The translations under genes and the position numbers were made by a program. Source: Corynebacterium occultum (GTDB taxonomy: Bacteria; Actinomycetota; Actinomycetes; Mycobacteriales; Mycobacteriaceae). From it: a stretch of DNA of 64,000 bases. Shown here in pieces: positions 37,150 through 53,132 of this stretch. The notes below the pieces were generated by a model. That model did no database searches. It had not been told where the DNA came from and was given only the letters and a program-made list of their open reading frames with translations. Position 1 is the stretch's first letter. Every line of letters begins with the position of its first letter. The stretch covers positions 806,001 to 870,000 of the forward strand of contig NZ_CP046455.1 of assembly GCF_009734425.1 (NCBI RefSeq), given 5' to 3'.

Positions 37150-37953
37150 CTAGGTGGCGGGCTGGACCGGCTCCAGCACCTTAGTCGTGATCAGTGCCTC
37201 AAGATGATTGTGGAGCTCTTCAGGAAGGTTCCCGCCCGTGACGAGAACTCCGAGTTCCATGTTCCGCTCCATCGCCGCGGACGTGAGATTCGCGCTCGTG
37301 ATGAAAGCGACCCGACCGTCGGCGACGGCGCACTTCGCATGGACCACACCGGGATACTGGCCTGCAGCGCCTTTCTCGTGGGCCGACCATGCGAACAGCC
37401 GAGCTGAGGGCACCAGCTTCCGCATTGCCTCCGCCGAGTCGTGATCGACTTTCCCGCCATGTGCGGTCGAAGACTCAAGCAGAACGTCGATCTGGACCCC
37501 GCGTTCGACGGCCTCGGTCAACGCCTTGCCAATCGACTTCACCTGGTACGCCACGAAACTGACAACGAAGAGACGCCGTTGTGCTGCGTTGATGACTCCC
37601 ATGAGCACCTGCTCGGTGTGCCGGACTGGGACCTGGGCGGAGGACGGCCCTGTCCAAGTGAGTTCGACAGAGCCGCGGCGCTGCTGCTCAACAGCCGTTG
37701 CTGATGCTCCTCGAAGTGCAGTCGCCACGTCACGTGGCGACATCGAATCTGCGCCGTGCCAGGCCTGACCAAGTTTGGTGATGAGCACCTTGTCCGCGTT
37801 GGGCCCGAAGGCCGGGCGAGCCAGCGTGAACTGCTCCACTGATCCGAGTCCTTCGATCTTGGAGGCGACTACGCGAACGCGATCAGGGTGAAGCTCCAGA
37901 CCCAGCTCCGCGACAACAGCAAGAAGCTCGTCCATGTCAAGCACTGGCCCCAT
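37150..37953 (-). CDS. drmC: DISARM protein DrmC, phospholipase D domain
   Basis: The 267-residue protein carries one HKD motif, H205-A-K207-x4-D212, followed by ITSANLTSAAMERNMELG, the standard PLD-family end. PLD-fold members act on phosphodiesters of lipids or nucleic acids, usually as dimers with two HKD motifs; this one would need to dimerise. DrmC is the PLD component of the DISARM anti-phage system and, in the studied system, was not essential for protection. It is the last gene of the operon and overlaps drmB by 17 bases; an inner ATG at 37935 would remove the overlap. Confidence 0.92.
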   Translation of the reverse strand: MGPVLDMDELLAVVAELGLELHPDRVRVVASKIEGLGSVEQFTLARPAFGPNADKVLITKLGQAWHGADSMSPRDVATALRGASATAVEQQRRGSVELTWTGPSSAQVPVRHTEQVLMGVINAAQRRLFVVSFVAYQVKSIGKALTEAVERGVQIDVLLESSTAHGGKVDHDSAEAMRKLVPSARLFAWSAHEKGAAGQYPGVVHAKCAVADGRVAFITSANLTSAAMERNMELGVLVTGGNLPEELHNHLEALITTKVLEPVQPAT

Positions 37954-39775
37954 GGAACAGACAGGCCTGATCGTCCCTCAGCGTGGGGATCACGAGGGCC
38001 CGGTCGAGGTAGCGATTGCCGCGTTCACACGAGGTCTCTGAGACGAACGTGCACGAATGGCAAGCGGCTGCGTGGAGCGAGCGGTCCTTGCTCGGATCGT
38101 GCTCCGAACACAGAGGGTCTGACGAGCAGATGGAGGCTCGTTCGAGCGCTTGGTCGAGTAGTCGGCCCAGGAAGTCGGGTTTGCCGAGGTCGACGAGGCC
38201 ACCGAGCGTACCGTCCGAATCGGCAGCGGCTGTGTACAGCAGGATGCCAGCCATCGGCGCCTCGGGGTCTGAACTCGCGTAGACGCGCTCTCGGATGCTT
38301 GCGGCGTTGTATCCGCACTCAAGCGCGAGCTCACGAACGAGGAGATGCGCGATGGTGTGGAGCATGGTGTACCGGCTCGGGGGGAAGCCAACTTCGGGCT
38401 TCAGATGGCGAGCGTTCCGCCAGCCCTGATGACCGACGAACAGAGTCTTGTCACGGTCGGCTACGTGCACATTCTGCTCCCACGACTTGATGACGGACTC
38501 GTTGAACTCGATGAAGATTCCTTCGCCATGCACTTCACTGGCCGGAACCCACTCCGTTGTACCTCGCGTGAGCGCGGCCATTGGCGGGCGTTCGTCAGGA
38601 TCGTTCGTTTCCTCGGGTGCTTCGACGCGGGTATATCCGATAAGTGCGTTGACTTCCCTGAGCCGTTCGAGCAGAAGCACGCGCTCGACCTGAGTTTCAT
38701 ACCCAACTGGCGCCGCAACGGTTGTGCTCATGAAGTGGGGCCAGTCGCTAGGCGGACTGCTTGAGGTCAGTACCTCCCACTCCGGGCCCTTGATGTCGCC
38801 TTCGGAGACGACCTCAATGCTTTTCCCCGCTTTACGGTGTTGGATCTCCTGCCAGATGCTGGGAACATCCCACTTGTCTATGCCGGGTAAGGCGCTGGTT
38901 CGGACCAGGGTCTTGACGATGCCTCTGAGCTCAGCTTCGTCGTCCACGTCTGCAAAGTGCTCCCAGCCATCAAGGACCAGTTGGCTCAGTTGGTTCTTCT
39001 CTAGCGGGATGGCAAGCACGGAGAGGGTGACGGGAAACCAACTGTTGGTCGCGCCAAGCAGGATCGTACGGGGTTCTTGGGTGCAGTCCTCGTATGAGTC
39101 GAGGTGAGGATGCCGCCCCCGACACCCAGGAAGATTGTCCGCGGCGTCCTTTCCGAATGCGTGGACAAGCGAGCGAGCGTTGTCGCAGGTATCGCACTTG
39201 ACCCAAAGGTTCTCGGTCTGCAGGGACGCGCCCCGCTCGAAGAATCGGAATGTGCCCTTACAGTCCGACCCACCGTGGATGAACCAGCTCCAAGGGAAGT
39301 CATCAAGGTGCCCGTTACGGCAGGCAAGGAGGAAGCGAGCAGGCACGGCGTCCGCACGCTTGCCCTTGTCGCAGTTCGTGTGGAGGAAGTGGGTTCGCTC
39401 TGGCCGGTAGGGGAAGCTCTTGATGTCGAACAGGCCCGAGTCGTACTCTGCGAGAAGTCCACACTTGATACAGCGCAGCCACCGTGGGAACGGGCTGACC
39501 GGAACGCCAACACGGCCTTCGGCAGAGAAGGGGTCGGGGCGATCCTCTTGGAGGAATGGGGGGATGCGGAGCCGCTGCACGTGCGGGCCGAGGACACGCT
39601 TGACCTCGGCGAGCAATCGGGCTTCTTCAACTGGAGGACATCTGTTGGGATCCCATTTGTTGAGCCCCATCGTGACGACCGATAGGTTTGGCAGGTCAAC
39701 GATTGAGCCAGGCCCGTAGGCCCACAGCAGCTGGCTTGGACGGACTTGGCCGACTACGTGGTTGTTCGTGCTCAT
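37937..39775 (-). CDS. drmB: DISARM protein DrmB, DUF1998 domain
   Basis: The 612-residue protein has DUF1998 at its C-terminus (about residues 470-590: HTIAHLLVRELALECGYN, GILLYTAAADSDGTLGGLVD), with a Cys cluster (CSSDPLC, AACHSCTF and ETSCERGN) that probably binds zinc. The N-terminal half also has Cys pairs (CIKCGLL; CDTC). DrmB forms a complex with the helicase DrmA and is part of the DISARM core. Its ATG overlaps the drmA stop by 4 bases. Confidence 0.93.
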   Translation of the reverse strand: MSTNNHVVGQVRPSQLLWAYGPGSIVDLPNLSVVTMGLNKWDPNRCPPVEEARLLAEVKRVLGPHVQRLRIPPFLQEDRPDPFSAEGRVGVPVSPFPRWLRCIKCGLLAEYDSGLFDIKSFPYRPERTHFLHTNCDKGKRADAVPARFLLACRNGHLDDFPWSWFIHGGSDCKGTFRFFERGASLQTENLWVKCDTCDNARSLVHAFGKDAADNLPGCRGRHPHLDSYEDCTQEPRTILLGATNSWFPVTLSVLAIPLEKNQLSQLVLDGWEHFADVDDEAELRGIVKTLVRTSALPGIDKWDVPSIWQEIQHRKAGKSIEVVSEGDIKGPEWEVLTSSSPPSDWPHFMSTTVAAPVGYETQVERVLLLERLREVNALIGYTRVEAPEETNDPDERPPMAALTRGTTEWVPASEVHGEGIFIEFNESVIKSWEQNVHVADRDKTLFVGHQGWRNARHLKPEVGFPPSRYTMLHTIAHLLVRELALECGYNAASIRERVYASSDPEAPMAGILLYTAAADSDGTLGGLVDLGKPDFLGRLLDQALERASICSSDPLCSEHDPSKDRSLHAAACHSCTFVSETSCERGNRYLDRALVIPTLRDDQACLFHGASA

Positions 39776-42700
39776 GCGGCGCCTCCGTCATTGGGTCGAG
39801 ACCGTGGTTTCCACGGTGGGGCCTCGGCCGAGCGCCTTGATGCGTCCATTATGAGTTGGACGCCGGGTTCTACCTCCCGCATGGACATCGGGACAGTGAA
39901 CTCGTCCCACGCTTGGGCGCCAGGCTTCCTCAACAACGCGACCACATCGCCCTGCCCGCGCCCAGTCTCATAGCCGAGGCGGCGCCCGCCCATTGCGGCT
40001 TCCTTCGCCCAACGGTCGATCCGGTCACGGGCCATCCTGAGAACGAGGTCACGCGCGGCCTTGTCTTTGGCTTTCCATGCCCGTTCCGAGACGGCTTCGA
40101 TCGCCTGTGTCGCTTCTGGTCCGGAGGTCTTTTCCATCAGCTGGGCACCGAGATTCGGGTTCAGCGAATCGTTGCCGAGCCGCATCAAGCTTACCATGGT
40201 ACCCGTCAGCGCACGATCAAGTGCCCTGGGGGCGAACGGTGTCACGGATTGGGCTTCGACGTGCTTGTAGAACGTCGAGTGGTAGTGCTCGAACGTCTCG
40301 TAGTGCGACAAGTCGCGCGGCCTGCTCCAGGTGAAGACCGTGACAACCAGGCCGGGGAAAGAACGTCCGACGCGGCTCGTGGCCTGGATGTACTCGGCGG
40401 TGTTCTTCGGTTGTCCGTTGACGACCATGAGGCCGAGACGATTCACGTCAACGCCCACCGACAGCATGTTGGTGGCAAGAACGATGTCGTAGGCGCGAGT
40501 CTCTCCAGACTCCCACTTCTCCTTGAAGGGCAACTCCAGACGGTCAAGCTTCTGCGGAATCTCTTTGCTGGTCACTCGTGAGGTCAGTTCGTCTACCTGG
40601 TTCACCGAGCGTTGTGTCAGGCCAGGGCGACTCACGTCACTCATCTCGACCCGATATGCACGAGTCTGCACATCATCCTCGGCCAGGCGTCTCATGCCTC
40701 CGAGTTCGCGTAGTGAGTTGAAGTAGCCGACCAGGGTCATGTATGGGTCCGCGGCAGCACCGAAGTCTTGGAAGAGGGTCTTCGCCGCAGTGAGCAATGC
40801 GACGTACACGCGGATGAGCACCGCAGGCCGTGAGCTGCCTGGTGAGCAGATGCCAAGGTAGAGCCTGCCGGGCCGGTCTTCTGTGGAGCGCTGCACCGAG
40901 AAGAAGTTGTCCTCAACGTCCAAACCGTGTGGCGGGAAGATCGCGACTTGGCGTAGGAACACGTTGTTCACCTGTTCCTCGGCCTTTCGGACGGTGGCGG
41001 TCGAGGCGATGACCTTCGGCCGGACCTTCTTGTCGCCCAGGGTCCACGTGGACAGTTCGTCGACGGCCGTCTCATAGACGCCAACCATCGTTCCAAGTGG
41101 TCCACTGATGAGGTGGAACTCGTCCTGAATAATGAGGTCGGGTGGCCGAAGCGGCGAAATTACCTTCACACGGGTCGCGGGTTTTCCTCGCTCAGCCTTG
41201 TGATTTCCTTGGCAAGGGCTCCCGGGCCACAGCAGGCCATGACGTGGGCATTCTGACGTGGCAGCACCGAACAGTGCCCGAGTCTGTCCGCGCCACGCCA
41301 TCATCGCGAACTTATCGACCGTGGCGATCAGCATCGACGGTGGACGGCGATAGATTTCCTCGTCCACCACAACGACAGGGAGTCCAAGCTCGGGGTATTG
41401 GGCCTTGGAGAACTCGCAGCGGCCATACTTGTCGCTGCAATAGATGAACGTCTGGTCTGCGCCAGGATACTTCTCGACGGTGATGTCTCGGCCAGGGTTG
41501 ATCGCGGAACCGCACCAGGGACAGCTGGTCAACTGCGCGGGTGTTGAACCTGTGTCGCGGCGGTTATCGCGTTCCTTCTCGATCGCCTCGTGGCTGTCTT
41601 CTGTGCGGTTCGGGGTCACCTTCCCGCCAACCCAGAGGCCAAGAGTAAAGGGCTCCGAGCCCCAGGTCTCGGGGTCTTGTTTGCGGAGCAACTCCATGGC
41701 GCAGATGAGGGTTGAGGCTCGCTGGAACTGCTGCAAGGTGAGGAGACGCAGCGTGTAGCGCATGATGACGGCGAGACCGCGTGTGGCATCGAGGCCGCCG
41801 AGCGTGCCTTGGAAGCGTCGGATCGACATGGCAAACGCCGCGACACCAAGATACGCCTCAGTCTTGCCGCCGCCGGTTGGGAACCAGAGCAAGTCGGCGT
41901 ATGCGGCCAGCGGTTCTGTCCGGTCCGAGTGCTTAGGGTCTGCCAACGCTGGGACAGATAGGAGCAGGAAAGCAAGCTGGAACGGATGCCAGGTGCGGTT
42001 CTCAGGGATGTTCAGCTTGTCCACCGTAACGGCCTCGTCCTGGCGACGTTTGCGGGCGTAGATGCCACGAACGCGCTGTTGCGCCATAGCGCGGTTGGCG
42101 AACCGGAACGCCGACATGGCATCCGTGTTCAGGCGCAGCGTCGAGATGCCTTCCTTGAGCCGTTCGAGGATGAGTTCGCAACGCTCCATAGCGTCCTGGG
42201 CTTGAGTGTCATAGCCCTCGACGGCTACCCCGATGGCAGCGCGGTTCTCTGCAATCCAGTCCTCATAATCCCCGGCGAGAACGGTCAGGGCTGCGAGTAG
42301 TTCGTCGTCGGACAGCTCGGCTGAATCAGCCAGCTTCTCCATGTCGAGCCAACCGTGCGCCCTCAGGTCGCGTAAGGCCGCACGGTCGGCTGAGTCAGCC
42401 CCAGGGGCCTCGGTGATCTGGATTTCCTGATCGGGGATGACCGCAGTCCGCACCTCAGTTGCCAGCTCAGGGTCGGACGTACTAACCACTGCGTGAACCG
42501 AGGTTCCGTGGCCGGTTGCGAACTCAACACGCCTCCTGTAGATCATCTCCAGCGACAACCGTTCTTCGTCGTGCTGCTTGACATCAAGCAACGGACGACG
42601 GCGAAAGACAGCGCCGCCAGCGTCGTCTCGTACAACGATCTCCGGCTGGAAGACCCAGGCTTGGTCACGGTTCTGCTGTGGCTCGGTCTGTCCGTTGACC

Positions 42701-43674
42701 AGAAACAGCGTCACCAGTCGATCACCTTGGCCGACCGGCCGACTGACGCTTCCTTCGAGACGAACCTCGGGGACTGCGTTGTCCACGGTGCATGGCGTGA
42801 GTGATCCTTCCCTCACTGCGAGCGTGACCTTTCCGCCCGCGGGAATTCGCTTCCAGCAACGCTTCCCCGACTCTTCTGACTTGCCCCGTACGTAGCGTCC
42901 CCACGACACCGCGACCTCGACCGCTTCCTGGTCGTCCGGCACGCAGAACGTCAAGCCCATGGAGGACGGAACCAGTGACTGGCTCTTGGAAGCGTTGGCC
43001 TCTGGTTCGTCGTCTTCCTCCACCGGGCTCGTAGCCGGTACGGAATCGCGGCTGATGTGCGCCTCATTCCCGTAAACACGAAGATCATCGGGCGTATCAC
43101 CGTCGGCGATCTCTTCCTCAGCGAACTCCGAGCTCTGTGGCGCGTTGTGCGCGTGGTCCAAGGGTGCAAGCTTGCCCACCAGGTACCGGTCGCGCACGCT
43201 CATGCCCACGATCTCCTCGTGTGGTCCGTTCGCAGGGCCGAGTAGATCGTCGACGACAGCAAGCCGTAGGAGTTCTCGCACGTAAGCTTGCTCGGCCTTC
43301 GTCTGGCCGGCCAGGTTTGGAGCGGCGCTGAACGGATTGCCTGTCAATCGGACGACCGCTTTCTCGAAGAGCTCCCACGACACCCGAGTTGCACCATGAC
43401 TCGGGTTGTGCGCAATTCCGAGGGCCACTAGAGGGATTGAGTCGGTGGAGCGGAGCAACCCGTGCAGGTAAACCGTCATATTTCCCAGAGACTGCCGGAC
43501 GCGGTATACGCGCGCTACCGCCACTGCTGCGCCCTCAACCGTGATGAGCACACCGTCTCCTCGCTGAAGTTCGCCACCCCTCGTTGTGACTTTCGTAACG
43601 GCAGTTAGTGACTCCTCGTGACCGGGTTGAACTGCGACGGTCCAGGCGTTTGGTATGTTCATTGCTCCAACCAA
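39772..43674 (-). CDS. drmA: DISARM helicase DrmA
   Basis: The 1300-residue superfamily 2 helicase has Walker A PTGGGKT (599-605), a zinc-ribbon-like insert (CPWC 719-722 with CSDKYGRC about 746-753), motif II DEFH (851-854), SVGVD (motif V region) and QATSRVGRSFPGL (motif VI). The N-terminal 590 residues include acidic linkers and helical parts. DrmA-DrmB is the core sensing unit of DISARM. An ATG at 43662 has a GGAG ribosome binding site at good spacing and may be the real start. A 90-base gap separates it from drmMI, the only clear gap in the operon. Confidence 0.95.
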   Translation of the reverse strand: MVGAMNIPNAWTVAVQPGHEESLTAVTKVTTRGGELQRGDGVLITVEGAAVAVARVYRVRQSLGNMTVYLHGLLRSTDSIPLVALGIAHNPSHGATRVSWELFEKAVVRLTGNPFSAAPNLAGQTKAEQAYVRELLRLAVVDDLLGPANGPHEEIVGMSVRDRYLVGKLAPLDHAHNAPQSSEFAEEEIADGDTPDDLRVYGNEAHISRDSVPATSPVEEDDEPEANASKSQSLVPSSMGLTFCVPDDQEAVEVAVSWGRYVRGKSEESGKRCWKRIPAGGKVTLAVREGSLTPCTVDNAVPEVRLEGSVSRPVGQGDRLVTLFLVNGQTEPQQNRDQAWVFQPEIVVRDDAGGAVFRRRPLLDVKQHDEERLSLEMIYRRRVEFATGHGTSVHAVVSTSDPELATEVRTAVIPDQEIQITEAPGADSADRAALRDLRAHGWLDMEKLADSAELSDDELLAALTVLAGDYEDWIAENRAAIGVAVEGYDTQAQDAMERCELILERLKEGISTLRLNTDAMSAFRFANRAMAQQRVRGIYARKRRQDEAVTVDKLNIPENRTWHPFQLAFLLLSVPALADPKHSDRTEPLAAYADLLWFPTGGGKTEAYLGVAAFAMSIRRFQGTLGGLDATRGLAVIMRYTLRLLTLQQFQRASTLICAMELLRKQDPETWGSEPFTLGLWVGGKVTPNRTEDSHEAIEKERDNRRDTGSTPAQLTSCPWCGSAINPGRDITVEKYPGADQTFIYCSDKYGRCEFSKAQYPELGLPVVVVDEEIYRRPPSMLIATVDKFAMMAWRGQTRALFGAATSECPRHGLLWPGSPCQGNHKAERGKPATRVKVISPLRPPDLIIQDEFHLISGPLGTMVGVYETAVDELSTWTLGDKKVRPKVIASTATVRKAEEQVNNVFLRQVAIFPPHGLDVEDNFFSVQRSTEDRPGRLYLGICSPGSSRPAVLIRVYVALLTAAKTLFQDFGAAADPYMTLVGYFNSLRELGGMRRLAEDDVQTRAYRVEMSDVSRPGLTQRSVNQVDELTSRVTSKEIPQKLDRLELPFKEKWESGETRAYDIVLATNMLSVGVDVNRLGLMVVNGQPKNTAEYIQATSRVGRSFPGLVVTVFTWSRPRDLSHYETFEHYHSTFYKHVEAQSVTPFAPRALDRALTGTMVSLMRLGNDSLNPNLGAQLMEKTSGPEATQAIEAVSERAWKAKDKAARDLVLRMARDRIDRWAKEAAMGGRRLGYETGRGQGDVVALLRKPGAQAWDEFTVPMSMREVEPGVQLIMDASRRSAEAPPWKPRSRPNDGGAA

Positions 43675-43763
43675 TCAACACCGAGCCACGGAGTTTTTTC
43701 AGAATAGAACAAGCCGGGTAACCTGCCCTGACTCAGCGCGTAGTCATCAAACGATTGCATAGT

Positions 43764-46700
43764 TCAGCACCTGATCTCTGTGTTTTCGATTCTCGCGCTC
43801 ATCTCTGGCGAAACCGAGTAGGCCTGGAATACGGCGATATCTAAAGCAGCCATTGCTTGCAGGATCTGCTCGGGGTCATTTATCGCATCCAGAACGGCGG
43901 CAGCAGCTTCCTCAATCTCGACAATTCTCCCGTCATGCGACGGAGGCATCGGAAGCTGCTCAACCATGGCTCCAGAAAAGCTAATTCCGCCATCAACTCC
44001 TAGGGCGCCGAACGCCTCCTGAACATAAAATCGCATGAGCCGTGAGTTCAGAATCCCGAGCAACGTGGGTAGCACCTCGTCGGAGTGTCGCGGTAAGACA
44101 ATAACGCTCGATTTGCCAGCAACATATGAGCCGTCGCGGTCCCAAAACGCCTCGAACTTTCGCATCCCTGAGAGGATCAACTTCGGAGCCACAGCCTGCG
44201 CATATCTTCGCGGCAACTCCTCGGCAAGGATTCGCCTAGCAACGACCGGCCGGGCGAACCGCTTCTTTAGATATCGGGTGTCAGATTCACCCCAGAGAGA
44301 AACAAACGGGTCGACTGTTCCCGTGTTTAGCAAACGGAATGAATCTACCGAGTCCGATCCCTCTGTCACCCAATCGCGAAGCCGGTACGCCTCCGCAACC
44401 GTGAACGGATCGCTCGCTACTGCGACGTCTCCAATTCGGCGATCCGAACTCGCGAGGTGGATAAGTATGTCGACATTCGTCGAGAGCAAGAAGCCCCAAT
44501 TCTGCCATTTCATAATTCGACTTCGCGGCACTCGCGATATCTCTGTGCCATGGCTTCCCGGTCTTCTCACCTGGACATTGTCGTCAATCGCGAGCCCAAA
44601 TCCGGCCGAGATGGCAGCTACACCAGCATTGGCGAATGCGCGGCCTTGGGAGAAATCAATGATGTGGCTTAGGGAGTTCGCCGTCAGATCGCGAAGTGCA
44701 GAACCGTAGGGAGCCGCGAGCCATTTGTTTGGACTGATCATGAAAACGGGAGACCCAGGCCTCACTATTTGGATCGCCCGCTCGATAAACGGCACATACA
44801 AGTCCCAGTTGCCTTTGGCGGTTGAGTATGCACCAGAGAGATACTGCCTCAGTTGCGGGTCGGAGCGGACCATCGTCTCGGAGTCAACAAATGGCGGGTT
44901 CCCGAACGCTGCATCGAAACCTCCTGCGGCAAACACCTCCGGGAACTCCAGTGCCCAGTGGAACGGGTCTCTCGCCAGTTCCTTATCGTCCGTCACCGGA
45001 TGCCACGAGCTTCGAGCGATTGCGCGCAACGCCTCAGTGTCTGCCCGGTTCCCTTCAAGCGCGCCTGCGGCGGTCAATGCCAACCCGTCGCATGCGCCGT
45101 TCAGGCCCCTGGAAGCCGGGCCGCGACGGAAAACTTCAGCCAGGAAAGCGTCCGCCACGAGGTCCACGGCACCCATGGTCTCTTGGGCTTCCTGATTTAG
45201 GGCTGCTCGGGAGCGCACATCCGCAATGTCTAGCTCTCGGCCCGATCGGAGTCTCTTTCGAACTTCGGCGGCACGCTGCACGGCGTGCGAGACGACATCG
45301 TCAAGTAAGCCAGTCTGACGTTCGCCTCGAACTGGTTCTAGACGCATCTGTATCAGTTGTTCGGTGGTGTGCACCCCAACGAGACTGTCGCCCCCTCGCA
45401 AATTGTGATCGAGGAAACCGAATGGTTTGCCCTTCGACAGAGTCACGAGCCAAATCGACAATTTCGCGAGCTCGACGGCCAGCGGGTTGATGTCCACCCC
45501 ATAGAGACAACGCTGAGAGACAAACCTACGGGCGACGGTGATCCGCTCGTCTGCCTGCGTCGGCAGAGGATCGGCGGCCCCGAGGTCCTCAACTACGTCT
45601 CCGTCGGCATTCACGAGGTGTCCGTCTGCCTCGGCGCTGGCCCATGCTTCAACCAGTCGTTCTGCCAAGTACCGGCAAGCCTGTACGAGGAATGCACCTG
45701 AACCCATCGCAGGGTCACAGACCCTTAGACCAAGGATCACTTCGGGAGACCTAAGAACCCACTGATCCCTTGGGCGTCCTTCTGTTGGGCCAGTGTATAC
45801 GAGGGGTTCGAGCGCAACGCCCACGATCTGCTCGGTCAGCGAGCGTGGAGTGTAGTGTGTACCGCTTTCTCGTCGATCGGCGCCTGGCGTGACCATGAAG
45901 GAGTGAGCTCCGTAAATAATCGCCTCACCCCAGGCATCACTTCTTAGAAGGTTGGCGAATGGGGCGATGCGCTCCAGCAGAGTGTCATTGCCATTCGCTG
46001 CACTTAGGAGGGCAGTTCGCGCTGCATCTGAAGCCGGTTTCGAGAGCGCTCTTCGGACCGCCGCTGGGGTTCGCCCTGTCTCTTTGGCGATCTTGGAGAC
46101 GAGATCGTCTGGGTGTTCGAGTCGCAGCGACTCCATCTCGGCCAAGCCCATCGTTGGATAGCGGTTCTTCGCCGAGCCCTCAAGACCTAGTGTGATGTCC
46201 GGGACACGAACAACCGTGTAGTCCAGCAGGCCTTCGTAGACGTGCCCAATCTGCTCAACGTCCAAGGCTCTGTACGACAGAGCAAGCGCACCGTGAGATT
46301 GCTCCAGCACCTGCAAGGAGTTGAGGAGTAGAAGGACCGTGCGATTATCGATCGGCAGCGGCTGCGAGACCGTGTCCAGCCATGAAGTGCCCAGCGCGCG
46401 ACCTTCGAGGAACGGGTACCGGTCGGGGTCGAATAAGGAGCCACCCATGGCGGGTAGCCGCAGATCTTCGTGCTCGATACCTGCGTAGACGGCACGGAAC
46501 GCAGCCAAGAGCCTCGCCCAAGCATCGAAGCGGCGTTCCAGCACTTCATCGCCCAGTTGGTCTGCTTCCTCAGCAAGTTTTCCACGGAGTGTAGAGACCG
46601 CGAGGTTCTGGTCGTACACGGGGTCGCCCAGAAGGAAAAGGCCCCTCTCTTCGGCGCACAAGACGAACACGAGACGCATCATGACCGTGAGTGATGCCTC

Positions 46701-47531
46701 ATAGAGCAACGATGGCGGCACATCGCGCAGGAGTTCCCGGTTGCGGTCCTGATCGGCCTTGTCGAGCGCTTGAATCAGAACCTCGGTGGCTCGGCGCACC
46801 TGCTCGCCGAGTGTGTCGGTGACTTCCTCCTGGTGTTTCAGTGACTCGTCGAGTAGCGCTTCGAGGGTCTGGTCGGTGGGCCCGAAGCAACGTCGCACGC
46901 CGAGCAACGACTGAAACGCCTTGAGCGTCGCCGGCTCCTGGAACCAGAAGCGCGAATGCCAGACGGCCTGCCCAGATGGTGTGTCAGCGGGCGCGTTGAC
47001 GAGCACCCACGATTCTCCGTTCGTCACGATCCCGATTCGGACCCCGTGCTCACGACACAGCAGGGTCATCCGTTCCAACTCAGTCGCGAGCCAGCCGTCA
47101 AGCTGAGCGGCGGACTCAAGGTCAGCGTCGGGGGGAGCCACTGCGATGAACGCGCGCGGCTCCGTTGAAGCTGGAGCGTGGATGATCCATGTGGGCGCGA
47201 AGTGCGCCGTCCCATCAGGTGATGAGATCGACGGAGCACCACCCACCCAAGAAGAGCGCGGTGTCGCCGACTCCTCGTCGAACTCAAGCAATTCGGTGAG
47301 GACCAGGTTCACCCACGCGTCGTGAAGCTGTGCGACAAGCAGGTCGTCCTCATCGACTGCTTCACGCCATTCATAGTAGGCGGAGCGGAGTCGCTGGCGA
47401 CGAGGGGTCTCAATCGATTCAAGGCCTTGCGGGAAGGCTTGTTCGAGAACTTTGAGCGTTAGAAACGGCCCCCTGGTCTCAACCAACGAGAGCCATTCGA
47501 CTTGCTGTGACTGTGCAACCATGGGGTTCAC
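43764..47531 (-). CDS. drmMI: DISARM class 1 N6-adenine methylase DrmMI
   Basis: The 1255-residue protein is an Eco57I/PglX-like N6-adenine methyltransferase: motif I DPAMGSG (606-612), the DINPLAVELAKLSIWL segment and the catalytic NPPF (878-881). A long N-terminal region (1-550) and a C-terminal target-recognition-like region flank it. In class 1 DISARM this enzyme marks host DNA. The GTG start overlaps the drmD stop (GTGA). Its 3' third is clearly AT-richer than the surrounding genome, for example at 43900-44700, which fits recent transfer. Confidence 0.93.
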   Translation of the reverse strand: MNPMVAQSQQVEWLSLVETRGPFLTLKVLEQAFPQGLESIETPRRQRLRSAYYEWREAVDEDDLLVAQLHDAWVNLVLTELLEFDEESATPRSSWVGGAPSISSPDGTAHFAPTWIIHAPASTEPRAFIAVAPPDADLESAAQLDGWLATELERMTLLCREHGVRIGIVTNGESWVLVNAPADTPSGQAVWHSRFWFQEPATLKAFQSLLGVRRCFGPTDQTLEALLDESLKHQEEVTDTLGEQVRRATEVLIQALDKADQDRNRELLRDVPPSLLYEASLTVMMRLVFVLCAEERGLFLLGDPVYDQNLAVSTLRGKLAEEADQLGDEVLERRFDAWARLLAAFRAVYAGIEHEDLRLPAMGGSLFDPDRYPFLEGRALGTSWLDTVSQPLPIDNRTVLLLLNSLQVLEQSHGALALSYRALDVEQIGHVYEGLLDYTVVRVPDITLGLEGSAKNRYPTMGLAEMESLRLEHPDDLVSKIAKETGRTPAAVRRALSKPASDAARTALLSAANGNDTLLERIAPFANLLRSDAWGEAIIYGAHSFMVTPGADRRESGTHYTPRSLTEQIVGVALEPLVYTGPTEGRPRDQWVLRSPEVILGLRVCDPAMGSGAFLVQACRYLAERLVEAWASAEADGHLVNADGDVVEDLGAADPLPTQADERITVARRFVSQRCLYGVDINPLAVELAKLSIWLVTLSKGKPFGFLDHNLRGGDSLVGVHTTEQLIQMRLEPVRGERQTGLLDDVVSHAVQRAAEVRKRLRSGRELDIADVRSRAALNQEAQETMGAVDLVADAFLAEVFRRGPASRGLNGACDGLALTAAGALEGNRADTEALRAIARSSWHPVTDDKELARDPFHWALEFPEVFAAGGFDAAFGNPPFVDSETMVRSDPQLRQYLSGAYSTAKGNWDLYVPFIERAIQIVRPGSPVFMISPNKWLAAPYGSALRDLTANSLSHIIDFSQGRAFANAGVAAISAGFGLAIDDNVQVRRPGSHGTEISRVPRSRIMKWQNWGFLLSTNVDILIHLASSDRRIGDVAVASDPFTVAEAYRLRDWVTEGSDSVDSFRLLNTGTVDPFVSLWGESDTRYLKKRFARPVVARRILAEELPRRYAQAVAPKLILSGMRKFEAFWDRDGSYVAGKSSVIVLPRHSDEVLPTLLGILNSRLMRFYVQEAFGALGVDGGISFSGAMVEQLPMPPSHDGRIVEIEEAAAAVLDAINDPEQILQAMAALDIAVFQAYSVSPEMSARIENTEIRC

Positions 47532-50500
47532 TCCCTCCGAGCCATGGACTCAGGGACCAGGAAGATCACGGCAGCGGGGAAGGTTCGTGCGACCGGATCG
47601 GCGTACTGGCGCTTGATAGCCGCCTCCTCAGCTGCCCGTTCTGCCGGGATGCGGGCTAGTCGGCTTTCGAGGGCGGAGATGTCCGCAGACACCTGGTTCA
47701 TCTCTTGCGGCGAGAGGCCGGGTAGATAGAGATCACTCTCGGCTTCGTCGGGGTTCAGCTCCTTGGTGATGGCTCGTTCGAGCTCGTCGAGAACAGAGTG
47801 GAGGTCGGTCAGGTCGTGGGTCAGTCGATCGTTGAGTTTCTTATCGAGGCTGTCGAGACGCTCTTTCGACCGGGCTTCGACCGCGCTCATGATGGACTGC
47901 TTTCTGTTTGCGAATCTCTCCTTGAGTACGGCGAACAGTGCGTCGCTCGGCTCGACTGGCGTAGCCGACGCAAGTAGCTCTTCACGCTTAGCAACCTGGG
48001 TGATCCGGCTGAATCGGTCGTGGCCAAGCTCTCCTCCGGAAAGAGTGAGTTCTTCGTGAAGCCGGCGGTGATCGCCTCCGGTTATGACGAGCCGTGACCA
48101 GAGTAGGACGACGGGCTGAGTAGCAAGACTGTCGGGGACCACGCGGACAGCTACCCGGTGCAGCTTCTTGGTGTCGTGCAGCTTCCAGATTTCCTCGCGT
48201 AGGAGCCGCAAGCACATCTGAACAAGTCGGTGCCCAAGGTGCGCAAGCACCACGTCATCGCGGCCCTTCGACGTCTCATGATCGAAGGTGATGGCACGCC
48301 GCTTGTGAGTGTGTGGGTGTTCAAGTCCGCGAGTCGCCTTGCCCCAAGAGCCAGTGAGCGCGGGCACGGTGAAGACGACCGCATCGGATGCGTCGGACAA
48401 CTTCACCGGGGTCAAAGGAGGCTTCTCGGCCAGGTCGAGGGCCACCCTCACTGCGCGTTCGACGTTCTCTGGCAGCATGCGAAACTCGCTTCGCGCCTGA
48501 ATCAGAGTCTGGTGCAAGCGTTGAATCCGGTCGCGCAGTTGGCGCTCAGCGGCAACAAATCGGCGGGCGCGTGCTGCGTTGGCCTCAGCCGAGACCGTAT
48601 CGAAGCGGTTCCGCCGACCGAGCATGATCTCTTCGATCTGCCGAGCAAGGACTGGTCCAACACTGCCAAGGTCTTCGCGGATCGTCTCGACCTTGTTCGC
48701 CGCTCGCATCAGGTACTCGTGGTCCCCAGCAACTTCGCCAGGGGCAAGCTCTTTGGCGCTGTATGCTCGACCCACCGGGTGCCAGATGAAAACGGTGTCT
48801 TGCTTCTGGCCGTGGCGATCAATGCGCCCGTTCCGCTGCTCCATGACGTTCGGATTCCAGGGAATCTCGACGTGGATGAGGTAGTTGCAGTGGTTCTGGA
48901 GGTCGATCCCCTCGGATGCGGCGTCGGTTGCAAGCAGAATGCGCACTGGGGACACCGCCGGATCGGCTTGGAAGGCCGCCTTCACGGTCTCCCGGTCGTC
49001 CGGGTCGACGTCGCCGTGGAGGAAGGCCAGGCGGTCGCCGCCGTATCCGTGGCTCGCGAGAATCTGCTGGAGCCAGCTGTGCGTCGCGCGGTACTCGGTG
49101 AACAGGATGACGCGCTTGTTGTTCCACTGGCCATCAGGTTCTTTGAGATGCGACTCGATCCATTCGAGGATCGCTTTGGCTTTCGAGTCAGGCTTGTTGC
49201 GTGCTCCTTCGGCCCAGATGGTCAGCCGGTCCAGCGTGTCGCGCTGGCTCAGGGTCAGCGGTACGGCGAGCTCGGAGGCCAGTTCCACGGCCTCGTGCTG
49301 GGCGTCCTCCAGTGTGGAGTCGTTCGCCTGATCCTCCTCAGCGCGAAGGATCGCCTTGCGCAAGACCCGATCGTCCATGGCGCCGAGGGGTTTGGATGCG
49401 CGTGAGGGGCGGCTCAGGGTCTCGCGGTGGCGTGCGAGCGTGGTAGCGAACGCGAGCGGCGACGAGAACAGGCGCTTCTTGAGGAGCTTGTGAGCGAAAT
49501 CCGTGCCATAAGCATACTTGCCACCACCGACGGACTTTGAGCGGTCGGTGATGAAATCCTGAAGCAGTGCGTGTGCTTCTACCTCGCTCTCGGTGTAAGC
49601 GACTTCGAGAGAGACGAGTTTTCGCTCGGGGAAGATGCGCTTGCCGTCTGGGTCCGTGATGTCGCTCTTGAGTCGGCGAACCATGACGCGATGCAGCTGT
49701 TGCTCGTCCGGCAGAACGGAGCGAGCGAAGCGCTGGTCATCTAGCAGCTCCAACAGCGACGTGAAGGACGCCTGGTGGCCGTTGTGCGGGGTGGCGGTCA
49801 GGAACAAACGGTGGGAGAAGTTGGGAGCGAGGGTCCGGATTAGCCTCGTTCGTTGGCTCTCAAGGGCGTATCGGGTAGCTGCGGCAGGCGCGACGTTGTG
49901 GGCCTCGTCGACGATGAGGATGTCGAACTTGCGCGGGTAGGTGCTTGACGCAGGGAGGATGTCCTTGAGCAGCCGCAGGCCCTCGCCTGACTTGGCCCAA
50001 TCCACTGACGTGATGAGCCGTGGGAAAGAAGTCCACGGGTTTGCTTGGATTCCTCTGCTGCGTCGTAGCTGCTTGACGTACTCCGCATCAACTATTCGGA
50101 ACTCCAAGCCGAACTTCTCCTGCATCTCCGTTTGCCACTTGATCTGAAGGCTTGCTGGGCAAACGACGAGAACCGTGCGGGCTCGATGCCGGATCAGCAA
50201 CTCCTGGACAACCAGGCCAGCCTCAATGGTCTTGCCGAGGCCCACATCATCCGCGATGAGAAGGTTTACCCGTGCCATGTCAATGGCTCGCACGAGTGGG
50301 TCAAGCTGATAGTCCTCAATGGAGATGCCGCTGCGGAACGGTGCTTGGAGGAACGTGCGGTTCGCGTTGGTTGCTGCGCCCCAGCGCACCGCATCAAGAA
50401 AAGCTTCCAGCCGGTCATCCGAGTCCCAGCCGGTGATCTCCGGCAGCCCGGCCTTTTCAAGTACTTGCGCACCAGGCTCAAGTTCCCAAATCACCTGAAG

Positions 50501-50677
50501 CTCTTCCCCCAGCGCATCCTCATCCAGCGAGGAGAGCGTGACGAGATGCTGCGGACGCGTCCCAGGCAGCGCGCTCCCCGTCGTCGCTTCAGACACGACC
50601 CATTGGCGACGACGTACCTCGACGAGCTGGCCAGGTTCAGGAACAGTCTGAGTTGAGAGTGCTTGGTCTGGTTTCAT
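47528..50677 (-). CDS. drmD: DISARM class 1 SNF2-like helicase DrmD
   Basis: The 1049-residue SNF2/RapA-type protein shows DDVGLGKT (Walker A, 143-150), DEAH (257-260), LTATPHNG (motif III) and a HELICc domain with ATDAASEGIDLQNHCNYLIH and QRNGRIDRHGQ. The C-terminal 350 residues are charged and include a coiled-coil-like stretch. DrmD defines class 1 DISARM. The ATG overlaps the stop of the cytosine methylase gene (ATGA). Confidence 0.93.
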   Translation of the reverse strand: MKPDQALSTQTVPEPGQLVEVRRRQWVVSEATTGSALPGTRPQHLVTLSSLDEDALGEELQVIWELEPGAQVLEKAGLPEITGWDSDDRLEAFLDAVRWGAATNANRTFLQAPFRSGISIEDYQLDPLVRAIDMARVNLLIADDVGLGKTIEAGLVVQELLIRHRARTVLVVCPASLQIKWQTEMQEKFGLEFRIVDAEYVKQLRRSRGIQANPWTSFPRLITSVDWAKSGEGLRLLKDILPASSTYPRKFDILIVDEAHNVAPAAATRYALESQRTRLIRTLAPNFSHRLFLTATPHNGHQASFTSLLELLDDQRFARSVLPDEQQLHRVMVRRLKSDITDPDGKRIFPERKLVSLEVAYTESEVEAHALLQDFITDRSKSVGGGKYAYGTDFAHKLLKKRLFSSPLAFATTLARHRETLSRPSRASKPLGAMDDRVLRKAILRAEEDQANDSTLEDAQHEAVELASELAVPLTLSQRDTLDRLTIWAEGARNKPDSKAKAILEWIESHLKEPDGQWNNKRVILFTEYRATHSWLQQILASHGYGGDRLAFLHGDVDPDDRETVKAAFQADPAVSPVRILLATDAASEGIDLQNHCNYLIHVEIPWNPNVMEQRNGRIDRHGQKQDTVFIWHPVGRAYSAKELAPGEVAGDHEYLMRAANKVETIREDLGSVGPVLARQIEEIMLGRRNRFDTVSAEANAARARRFVAAERQLRDRIQRLHQTLIQARSEFRMLPENVERAVRVALDLAEKPPLTPVKLSDASDAVVFTVPALTGSWGKATRGLEHPHTHKRRAITFDHETSKGRDDVVLAHLGHRLVQMCLRLLREEIWKLHDTKKLHRVAVRVVPDSLATQPVVLLWSRLVITGGDHRRLHEELTLSGGELGHDRFSRITQVAKREELLASATPVEPSDALFAVLKERFANRKQSIMSAVEARSKERLDSLDKKLNDRLTHDLTDLHSVLDELERAITKELNPDEAESDLYLPGLSPQEMNQVSADISALESRLARIPAERAAEEAAIKRQYADPVARTFPAAVIFLVPESMARRE

Positions 50678-51768
50678 GCGAGCTGACCCCCGGTAAGCAC
50701 ACGAAGGACATCATCACGATGCTCCTTGACGTGGGCCTTCATACTCCGGCCGATCAGTTCGCCAAGGGTGACAGGTACTGCATTGCCGATCAGCCTACCG
50801 ATGGTCTTCATGTGCACGGGGGCACCGGGCGCGACGAACTGGTAGTTCAGGGGGAAGCCCTGCAAGATCGCTCCCTCTCGTAGAGAAATCGCTCGATCCT
50901 GGGAAGGGTGCCCGAAGCGTCCGTTGCCGAACCCGTAGAACTGAGTAGTCATGGTAGGGGCAGCCTCGTCCCAAGTCATGCGACCGTACACGCCTGCATA
51001 GGTCTTGCCGGACTCCTTCTTGTGGCATTCAGCGACAAGTTCGTCGGGCCAGTCACGCCAGGTGCCACCGGGCTTGGACGCCTTGATCCTGCGCAGGTTC
51101 AGTGGCGACAGCCGGGAGGCTCGGTGCAGTCGATCTACTGCATCTGCTGACCCCGCTGCCAGGGCTGGCACCCTCCCGTTGCCGATCGCTTCGCGAACGC
51201 TCGTCGGTTTTGCATTGAACTGAGCGGGGGTAAGGAGACTGATCGGGCCAAGGCGCGAAGCGAGGAGAACCAGTCGATTTCGATGCTGAGGAACACCGTA
51301 GTCTTGGCAGTCGACGATCTGCTTGGATACCTCGTAACCGCTGGCTTCGAGCGATCCAACGAATTCATCGAAGACGGCATGGTTGAGCAGACCGGGTACA
51401 TTCTCCATGGTGACCAGCTCTGGGAGCAGTTCTCCTGCAAGGCGCGAGAAGTGCCGCAGCAACCACCATCGGTCATCGTCGGTAGACGCTTTCTGATTGT
51501 AGGAAGAGAACGTCTGGCATGGGGCACAACCAGCCAGCAGCCGAACGCTTCTCGGCAAGTAGTACGAAGCGAGCTCGCGGGACTCAATGTCGCCGACTGA
51601 CTTGAGAAGGAACTTGGCCTTGTTGTTCTCCGTGTACGGGTACTCGCATGCAGGGTCGACATCGACGCCCACACGGACGTTGATTCCGGCCTTGGCAAGG
51701 CCATGGGTCAGTCCTCCTGCCCCGCTGAACAGGTCTACGGCGTTGATTGGTATGTGGGGCGCGGTCAC
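50674..51768 (-). CDS. drmMII: C5-cytosine DNA methyltransferase, DrmMII-like
   Basis: The 364-residue protein has the motifs of C5 methylases in order: DLFSGAGGLTHGLAKAG (I, AdoMet), GCAPCQTFS (IV, catalytic Cys84 in PCQ), MENVPGLL (VI, ENV at 122-124), QHRNRLVLLASR (VIII), and LREGAILQGFP with IGNAVP (IX-X). It starts at a GTG overlapping the HTH gene and its stop overlaps drmD, so it is part of the defence operon. A cytosine methylase is the mark of class 2 DISARM, where it protects the host genome. Whether it is a true DrmMII or an independently acquired Dcm-like enzyme cannot be told here. Confidence 0.88.
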   Translation of the reverse strand: MTAPHIPINAVDLFSGAGGLTHGLAKAGINVRVGVDVDPACEYPYTENNKAKFLLKSVGDIESRELASYYLPRSVRLLAGCAPCQTFSSYNQKASTDDDRWWLLRHFSRLAGELLPELVTMENVPGLLNHAVFDEFVGSLEASGYEVSKQIVDCQDYGVPQHRNRLVLLASRLGPISLLTPAQFNAKPTSVREAIGNGRVPALAAGSADAVDRLHRASRLSPLNLRRIKASKPGGTWRDWPDELVAECHKKESGKTYAGVYGRMTWDEAAPTMTTQFYGFGNGRFGHPSQDRAISLREGAILQGFPLNYQFVAPGAPVHMKTIGRLIGNAVPVTLGELIGRSMKAHVKEHRDDVLRVLTGGQLA

Positions 51769-51953
51769 TTGGCCCCACCTTCGCGCGCGTCGCCGCCAGC
51801 TTCAACGTGGTCTCGTTTAAACTTCCACTTTCGCCCCATCTTGTGGGCGGGCACGGCTGAACGCTCGATCCACCGATAGACAGTGTCACTACTCACTCCG
51901 AGGTGCTGACAAATCTCCTCGACGGAGAGCCAGCGATCTTGCACGTTAGCCAT
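51765..51953 (-). CDS. Small helix-turn-helix (excisionase-family) protein, operon leader
   Basis: The ATG at 51953 has a good ribosome binding site (AAGGAG, 6 bases upstream). The 62-residue product is a MerR/excisionase-type winged helix: WLSVEEICQHLGVSSDTVYRWI then VPAHKMGRKWKFKRDHVE. It is the first gene of the DISARM operon and overlaps the methylase start by 4 bases. Likely roles are control of the operon promoter; recombination directionality is less likely since no intact recombinase is near. Confidence 0.85.
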   Translation of the reverse strand: MANVQDRWLSVEEICQHLGVSSDTVYRWIERSAVPAHKMGRKWKFKRDHVEAGGDAREGGAK

Positions 51954-52058: not shown

Positions 52059-52066
52059 CTAATATA
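52059..52066 (-). promoter_or_regulatory. Candidate -10 of the DISARM operon promoter
   Basis: The minus strand reads CTTATATTAG here, 106 bases upstream of the HTH start codon and about 60 bases inside the end of the insertion sequence. It is the most -10-like word in the 172 bases between the HTH gene and the IS. No convincing -35 was found. The rest of that gap holds no gene. Confidence 0.25.
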
Positions 52067-52125
52067 AGCCGCAGAGATGCGCATATGTCCGCGCGCGTCT
52101 GGGATCTTCCCACCCCTCAGCACTA

Positions 52126-53132
52126 AGCGGTGTCACGAAAGTCGTTTCAGCCAGTACCGGATCACCGCCACCTGAACCATGGCCTCGAAATGCACCGCTA
52201 ACTTGTCCAAACTCGTGGCACACCCACGGTGCTGCTTGGTCCGATTGATACCCTGCTCCACGGCATTGCGACGCCGATAAGCTGCGGTGTCGAAAGCAGG
52301 GGGGTCGGCCCCCGGCTGACTCCCTGCGCCGACGGTGGGCGACCTGGTCCTTCGGCTGAGAAATCGTTGCCGTGATACCCCGCGACCTCAGATACTTCCG
52401 GTTGGCACGCGAGGAATACACCTTGTCCGCCAGCACCCGCTTAGGCCGGCACCTTGGCCGACCCCGCCCGGCGGACGGTACGCGGATCTTGTCCAGTACC
52501 GGCATCATCTGCGGACCATCCCTTGCTTGACCTGGTGTGACGACAAACGACATCACCACGCAATCGGCATCAATGCCGACGTGGATCTTCGTTGGCTACC
52601 CGCCCCTTGAGCGGCAAAAACCATGATCAGCAGGCTCTGCCAGATGGCGGGTGACACTGTCTTTCCTGGCGCCGGCGGCGTGGACGTGCCGGCGAGTGGT
52701 CGTGGAGTCGGCACTGACCTCCAGGAAAGTTTTCCCTGCTCTTGGGCGTGAGTGAGCAGCCGGGTGTGCACGTTTGTCCACACCCCGTCGGCCCGGAGAT
52801 GGACAAACAGGGCGTAGACCCGCCACCAGGGGCCGTGGCGTTCATGGACATCGGGCCATGGGCAGCCGGTACGGATGCGGAAGAAGATGCCGTTGAGCAG
52901 GGATCTAATGCCCCAGGTGCGGGGGCGTCCCCGCCGTGGTGGGGCGGGCAGGAGTGGGGCAAGCAGTGCCCATTCGGCGTCGGTGAGGTCGTGGCGGGCG
53001 GGCGGCGGTAAAGTAGGCAACGAGGTTTTCCTGGTACGCGTTGATGATTAGACACCAACACCGTGCGCTGTGAAACCCTCGTTGCAGTTTAGGGCACGCC
53101 GGTGTCACTCACCGGATTTTCGTAACACTGCC
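52126..53132 (-). mobile_element. IS5-type insertion sequence, 1007 bp
   Basis: The ends form an imperfect 18-bp inverted repeat (AGCGGTGTCACGAAAGTC at 52126; GGCAGTGTTACGAAAATC read inward from 53132), each flanked by TA. The transposase on the minus strand resembles the IS5 superfamily (IS402-like N-terminal domain and DDE domain) but is broken. The element lies between the DISARM operon promoter region and the amtR stop, 20 bases from the latter. Confidence 0.85.
52128..53020 (-). pseudogene. IS5-family transposase, broken
   Basis: The ATG at 53020 starts an intact N-terminal domain (LTDAEWALLAPLLP, then RPRTWGIRSLLNGIFFRIRT and CPWPDVHERHGPWW). The frame must shift near 52740 to continue with LEVSADSTTTRRHVHAAGAR (first catalytic Asp in ADST). 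There is an in-frame TAG at about 52603, just before PTKIHVGIDADCVV. After ADKVYSSRANRKYLRSRGI a second shift near 52330 is needed to reach the last part (NAVEQGINRTKQHRGCAT, catalytic Glu). IS5 elements can use one programmed frameshift, but two shifts plus a stop indicate a dead gene. Confidence 0.75.

Follow-up and report, generated by a model that had tools for sequence, protein, structure and literature searches.

A seven-gene operon on the minus strand

The window analysed here is a stretch of 64,000 nucleotides from Corynebacterium occultum (contig NZ_CP046455.1, positions 806,001 to 870,000 of the forward strand). Its minus strand carries, from position 51953 down to 37150, seven open genes coding for a helix-turn-helix (HTH) protein, a C5-cytosine DNA methyltransferase (C5 methylase), DrmD, DrmMI, DrmA, DrmB and DrmC. 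They very probably form a complete class 1 DISARM (defence island system associated with restriction-modification) anti-phage operon of the two-methylase subtype known from Serratia sp. SCBI, in which both methylases would label the host and in which the C5 methylase would come from a family associated with GHKL, GmrSD and HEPN proteins that became attached to one class 1 lineage.

The operon begins with the HTH gene (51765-51953, 62 residues; HTH_17, PF12728 with 54 bits), whose small product is presumed to be a regulator. It is followed by the C5 methylase gene (50674-51768, 364 residues; PF00145 with 175 bits). At E 0.001, PF00145 matches nothing else in the genome. The target-recognition region of the enzyme, residues 173-257 (50998-51252), has borders drawn by hand, and we take it to be the recognition domain from the usual order of C5 motifs. 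Next come the class 1 marker DrmD, an SNF2-like helicase (47528-50677, 1049 residues; NF038317 with 1380 bits, cut-off 610), and DrmMI, an N6-adenine methylase of the MmeI/Eco57I type (43764-47531, 1255 residues; 1208 bits with the PADLOC DrmMI profile and 112 bits with PF07669), of which about 320 C-terminal residues are presumed to be the specificity domain. The core is completed by the DrmA helicase (39772-43674, 1300 residues; NF038325 with 1444 bits, cut-off 950), the DUF1998/MZB protein DrmB (37937-39775, 612 residues; NF038324 with 738 bits, cut-off 240) and the phospholipase D-like putative nuclease DrmC (37150-37953, 267 residues; NF038319 with 245 bits, cut-off 133). The listed start of DrmA, a TTG directly behind a stop, is uncertain: since homology sets in only around residue 39-49, translation probably begins further downstream.

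DrmD, DrmA, DrmB and DrmC all score above the curated NCBIfam cut-offs. In PADLOC, DrmD scores highest with a profile named DrmA (1452 bits), by a margin of 2.5 bits over the second-placed DrmD profile (1450 bits), and NCBIfam resolves the protein as DrmD. All five motifs sought in the C5 methylase were found (DLFSGAGG, PCQ, ENV, QHRNR and GNAV), as were NPPF in DrmMI, GGGKT and DEFH in DrmA, GLGKT and DEAH in DrmD, and HAKCAVAD in DrmC, all of them read as catalytic motifs. The genes that define class 1 DISARM, namely DrmD, DrmMI and the DrmA-DrmB-DrmC core, are therefore all present on the minus strand with open frames, as a preliminary description of the locus had stated. This description had also seen the C5 gene joined to both neighbours by 4-base overlaps, and these were confirmed as GTGA at the border with the HTH gene (51765-51768) and ATGA at the border with DrmD (50674-50677). 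In the same way, 4 bases are shared by DrmD and DrmMI and by DrmA and DrmB, DrmB and DrmC overlap by 17 bases, and 89 bases separate DrmMI from the listed DrmA start. Its observation that a class 1 core stands in one operon with a second, chemically different methylase also holds.

Distribution and relatives of the C5 methylase

Relatives of the C5 methylase were collected by scanning species genomes with six peptide patterns; the position of two of these patterns, within or close to the recognition domain, favours the same domain type. Among the best 80 kept of 480 relatives, a DrmD match was found in the fetched DNA of 56 (the partial DrmD of locus L081 included) and none in 24. Gene order was scored where the C5 methylase exceeded 300 bits and DrmD 1000 bits, which gave 57 loci; loci with a partial C5 methylase or DrmD (among them L005, L036, L053, L074, L081 and L129) fell below these thresholds, and L141, identical to L011 in both proteins, was dropped from the order and domain-comparison counts. 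In 57/57 loci, the C5 gene precedes DrmD on the same strand; 32 of them have an HTH match nearby and 26 a gene for a Vsr endonuclease. In Microvirga terrae, an annotated Vsr gene is found between the C5 gene and DrmD. The exception, outside the 57, is the plasmid of Deinococcus AJ005, on which the C5 and Vsr genes lie beyond drmC. Moreover, C5 identity tracks DrmD identity (rho 0.753 over 58 rows, with 0 of 1000 shuffles as high). The arrangement that the preliminary description had proposed to search for is thus common, and chance adjacency of the C5 gene and DISARM, which it had dismissed, is rejected by the conserved order. The co-translation that it had asserted is retained as probable, on the basis of the gene overlaps. 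The window's order HTH-C5-DrmD-DrmMI is found for instance in [Zimmermannella] bifida (L004), Nostocoides jenkinsii (L007) and a Propionibacterium metagenome-assembled genome (L005), whose C5 methylases are 83-91% identical to that of the window, L004 reaching 91%.

In parallel, DrmD served as the anchor of a second survey. NF038317 was searched in 396 genomes from the window's phylum, 369 from the class of Citrobacter, 385 from the class of Kaistia, 199 from the class of Desulfovibrio and 194 from the phylum of Scytonema, and 14, 5, 3, 7 and 16 genomes respectively were over its cut-off, with the window's own genome and the four centre genomes counted in. Forty of these loci (a single cyanobacterial genome giving two), a split system below the cut-off, four of 26 plasmid matches and one viral contig make up a set of 46 systems, which includes neither a cyanobacterial match with stops (G1427) nor the locus of DrmD in the centre genome G401. 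A C5 gene was observed in nine of the 46: 1/13 in the window's phylum, 0/1 for the split system, 1/4 in the class of Citrobacter, 1/2 in that of Kaistia, 3/6 in that of Desulfovibrio, 0/15 in the phylum of Scytonema, 2/4 on plasmids and 1/1 on the viral contig. Some of the loci counted as lacking it end soon upstream of DrmD (e.g. L135, L142, L143 and L156), where a more distant C5 gene would be missed. DrmD identity to the window is 58-70% over nearly the full length in eight of the nine positive systems and 64% in the viral one, and does not exceed 52% in the 37 negative ones. A search of the Citrobacter DrmD DNA against E. coli gave no match.

In a 100-row tree of DrmD, in which 64 rows have C5 and 36 lack it, the C5 label requires a single change with a support of 100, and 0 of 500 label shuffles were as low. 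This tree was computed with FastTree, which gave long-branch warnings on outer rows, using a label threshold of 100 bits; it contains neither the viral locus L176 nor the split system L127/L128. Since the C5-anchored rows are labelled by construction, the independent part of the result consists of the 8 positives inside the branch and the 36 negatives outside. These 8 DrmD-anchored systems share one common branch, on which no row lacks the C5 gene. Its rows are titled Actinomycetota, Pseudomonadota, Thermodesulfobacteriota, Bacillota, Verrucomicrobiota, Lentisphaerota, Chlorobiota, Chloroflexota, Bacteroidota and Gemmatimonadota, in addition to a Deinococcus plasmid, and several are metagenome-assembled. 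The comparison sets the two-methylase systems apart as one class 1 branch, of which the C5 gene looks like a stable property and not like the product of a fusion of classes.

The family also exists in other surroundings. A neighbour was scanned at 11 of its 24 DrmD-less loci (whose 'no DISARM' label is unsure on short contigs such as L051 and L069), and a GHKL, GmrSD or HEPN neighbour was found at 11/11: the GHKL ATPase PF13589 at L010, L016, L018, L024, L059, L063, L073 and L041, GmrSD at L067 and L078, and HEPN MAE_28990 at L077. Among the 25 plasmid hits listed for the C5 protein, 3 also show an overlapping annotation of a HEPN-like nuclease. Restriction-modification systems that pair MORC-type GHKL ATPases with cytosine methylases and Vsr endonucleases have been described (Iyer et al. 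2008, PMC2292703), and the GHKL proteins near the C5 genes can be read as MORC-like members of this kind. The C5 family resembles MORC/paraMORC systems in that its methylase occurs near GHKL ATPases, in some cases with Vsr, whereas the window operon has DISARM as its effector and a Pfam scan of its genes found no GHKL/MORC ATPase partner. The C5 methylase of two-methylase DISARM would thereby be linked to GHKL/MORC-type restriction-modification. A Deinococcus plasmid locus (L129/L177) with a C5 gene, Vsr and an 'ATP-binding protein' beside DISARM was considered as an intermediate and dropped, the scanned fragment of that protein being without a Pfam match.

Specificity domains of the two methylases

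The two methylases of this branch differ in how their specificity domains evolve. In 50 loci with a complete C5 methylase and DrmMI (window counted; 1225 pairs), the C5 recognition region has a median pairwise identity of 0.57 and a minimum of 0.44, and it varies together with the remainder of the enzyme (rho 0.67, with 0 of 1000 shuffles reaching this value). The part of DrmMI beyond residue 930 has a median of 0.28 and a minimum of 0.10 and does not track the N-terminal part (rho 0.09, with 154 of 1000 shuffles as high). By BLASTP at 1e-5, the C5 regions match in 1225/1225 pairs and so do the DrmMI N-terminal parts, the C-terminal parts doing so in 914/1225. Between the window and L005, for example, DrmMI identity is 0.71 in the N-terminal part and 0.16 in the C-terminal one, and for L004, the other close relative in this comparison, the C-terminal domain is 26% identical to that of the window.

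Single linkage sorted the DrmMI C-terminal parts into three groups with 43, 5 and 2 members; that of 5 consists of the window, L004, L042, L046 and L058. Among six DrmMI proteins that were scanned, MmeI_TRD matched in L005 (below the cut-off), L139 and L080, and TaqI_C matched above the cut-off in L042, just under it in L046 and well under it in L004. The window DrmMI gave neither match at E 0.001, and its type is assigned by its BLASTP group. No pair was found in which the DrmMI C-terminal part is more alike than the N-terminal part; a recent domain transfer between distant lineages was not caught directly.

The window's C5 recognition domain is of the same type as in 9/9 DrmD-anchored C5 methylases (identity 0.42-0.69), a comparison made to offset the bias of the scan patterns. 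The 24 non-DISARM members share this type too (identity 0.48-0.74), and the conservation therefore belongs to the C5 family and not to DISARM alone. Taken together, a conserved C5 recognition domain and unrelated types of DrmMI C-terminal domain suggest that the cytosine mark is constant and the adenine mark changeable, provided that conservation of the domain implies an unchanged motif.

We tentatively propose, with somewhat less than even confidence, that the two self-marks of this branch obey opposite rules: a single C5 type, found in records titled at least ten phyla and probably reading one motif, would also serve GHKL/MORC, GmrSD and HEPN modules, and DrmMI would swap its whole C-terminal domain, MmeI-type versus TaqI-like. 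If so, the fixed mark would let operons change hosts without self-damage and act as a common password for unrelated defence effectors, and the variable mark would keep phages that gain the fixed one from escaping. The conservation of the one domain and the exchange of the other appear to be new as far as was searched: no prior account of the C5-bearing branch, of its split from DrmMII or of fixed and changing marks was found in the open literature, a scope that leaves out the two most relevant papers, and no priority is claimed.

Self-marking and competing explanations

The system of Serratia sp. SCBI, which we take to be class I from the title of a cited reference, belongs to another host than the window operon. 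As reported by Bravo et al. 2022 (PMC9142583), it has, like the window, both a C5-cytosine and an N6-adenine methyltransferase in one operon, with the methylation motifs ACACmAG and YMTmCGAKR, and its DrmAB structures are 7S9V and 7S9W. The same paper describes DISARM operons as typically containing 'DrmMI and/or DrmMII'. The window DrmA is homologous to the Serratia DrmA of 7S9V over nearly its full length (1607 bits). None of the 120 listed of 8000 scored C5 matches is named Serratia, most matches being nameless. The pairing of two methylases in class 1 DISARM is already known, and the locus is one more member of this kind instead of the new hybrid of class 1 and class 2 announced in the preliminary description. 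In addition, an unexplained modification has been linked to a DISARM in Cutibacterium acnes (PMC7365801).

Because the intact class 1 operon contains a chemically different second methylase, two-mark self-labelling is plausible, judging from gene content. If both are active in this host, the C5 methylase and DrmMI would label the host chromosome with 5-methylcytosine (m5C) at one motif, possibly the Serratia motif, and with N6-methyladenine at another, and both marks would matter for self-recognition. DrmA-DrmB together with DrmD would engage unmarked incoming DNA with exposed 5'-overhang or single-stranded ends and would block or destroy it. The HTH protein probably times expression so that methylation comes before the helicases. 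In evolutionary terms, the C5 gene would have joined one ancestral class 1 DISARM lineage and mostly stayed there since, in records titled at least ten phyla, its recognition domain being kept as the DrmMI specificity domain was exchanged. In Serratia, DrmAB prefers 5'-overhang DNA, its ATPase activity is lower on m5C DNA, and V1296 of DrmA is proposed as a methylation-sensing residue (PMC9142583). Its equivalent in the window is DrmA Val1268 by alignment (codon 39871-39873, minus strand).

Several observations weigh against this scheme. DISARM can restrict phages without methylation target sequences, and class 2 DISARM protects against modified phages, which limits a simple two-mark model (PMC9142583). 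The sensor valine, present in 6/6 alignable C5-bearing rows, was also found in 13/14 alignable class 1 systems without C5 and in 8/9 DrmA proteins of L160-L169, with 27 of 33 and 4 of 18 further rows ending before that column. It failed as a discriminator of the two groups and, being kept with or without C5, gives no proof of m5C reading. In 37/46 DrmD-anchored systems, the fetched DNA is without a C5 gene, which indicates that class 1 DISARM in general can do without the cytosine mark. Vsr has no match anywhere in the window's genome, versus its presence near the C5 gene in 26/57 related loci. Finally, an approximately unbiased (AU) test rejects one clade for the DISARM-borne C5 methylases (66 versus 24 rows, p-AU 8.3e-43). 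A single origin on the C5 tree is thereby rejected, although the DrmD tree needs only one change, and the methylase has passed between DISARM and other modules. The C5 methylase of L016, encoded next to a GHKL ATPase, is nested among DISARM ones with a support of 99.

Part of this evidence would fit a passenger role of the C5 methylase, in which an enzyme derived from a MORC-type restriction-modification module is co-expressed with the operon but unused in self-recognition, for example guarding against other nucleases or tuning expression. The many class 1 systems without C5 and the indifference of the sensor valine are in line with it, as are the C5 methylases of L016 and L010, which are respectively 90% and 85% identical to the DISARM C5 methylase of L139 and lie beside GHKL ATPases. 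We nevertheless judge it rather unlikely: the overlaps on both sides of the C5 gene, the order kept in all scored loci, the co-inheritance with DrmD and the presence of C5 in all 8 DrmD-anchored rows of the branch argue for an integrated gene, and in Serratia m5C lowers DrmAB ATPase activity (PMC9142583). The comparison of the systems makes the question of which mark DISARM reads as self testable.

Recruitment of a class 2 DrmMII into a class 1 operon, i.e. a true hybrid of classes, is far less probable. The preliminary description had defined class 1 by drmD with drmMI, which stands, and class 2 by drmE with drmMII, which is imprecise: class 2 is marked by drmMII, and drmE is optional. It had also assigned the cytosine methylase to the class 2 type. 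PADLOC does score the window C5 methylase as DrmMII (PDLC02651, 270.6 bits), but slightly less well than as a type II methylase (279.7 bits). In the C5 tree, which has 98 rows, a very long branch splits the family (88 rows) from E. coli Dcm, seven other type II enzymes and two class 2 DrmMII. These two, the only class 2 references, come from L166 (a plasmid operon C5-X-DrmA-DrmB; PADLOC DrmMII 457 bits) and L169 (from the class of Aneurinibacillus, DrmA-DrmB-C5-Vsr; 614 bits), and the trees, made with FastTree or quick IQ-TREE, carry long-branch warnings. The window's recognition domain is 14% identical to each of them, with 31 and 35 inserted residues respectively. Moreover, no DrmE was found among the PADLOC matches listed for the operon's open reading frames (8 frames). 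Class 2 DISARM thus resembles the window in combining a DrmA-DrmB core with a C5 methylase and differs in the C5 lineage and recognition domain, as far as these two references tell. The C5 enzyme is, within the same limit and from sequence comparison, not a class 2 DrmMII, and a class 2 recruitment of its gene is rejected on the tree and the recognition domain; the name DrmMII may mislead for enzymes of the window type. An orphan of the Dcm/Vsr kind is likewise rejected, the enzyme being far from E. coli Dcm in a genome without a Vsr match. Of the two findings that, together, the preliminary description had expected to overturn its hybrid, clustering with orphan Dcm enzymes and an arrangement seen only once, neither was observed, the enzyme being far from E. 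coli Dcm and the order common. The class 2 profile NF038326 found nothing in 299 genomes nor in the controls, and so says nothing about absence.

Decay of the operon, with one or both methylases inactive, is very improbable: two IS5-type transposase frames lie directly upstream (52059-53020) and the genome is without a Vsr match, but the seven frames are open, the sought motifs are intact and the C5 methylase is 91% identical to its L004 homologue in the same gene order.

The two transposase frames upstream of the operon overlap (DDE_Tnp_1 and DUF4096) and may represent an insertion element that is either broken or translated through a frameshift. At the C5 motif, deamination in this genome would miss the Vsr repair enzyme. 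A Vsr gene is found directly behind the class 2-type DrmA-DrmB-DrmMII of L169, as in many two-methylase class 1 operons. On a Microvirga terrae plasmid (L130:19217-21631), a GHKL ATPase (PF13589) and a putative O-methyltransferase are inserted between drmMI and drmA of a two-methylase DISARM. A second Eco57I-type methylase match (G000:C1:803796-804302) is located about 2 kb before the window in an open frame of 1687 residues. Finally, a Tsukamurella plasmid (L161:4333-20322) carries a DrmA-DrmB operon with a short C5 methylase-like gene of 271 residues and a UvrD-like helicase upstream, and with a DrmD-like helicase and a DrmMI-like gene of weak scores downstream, possibly a further DISARM variant.

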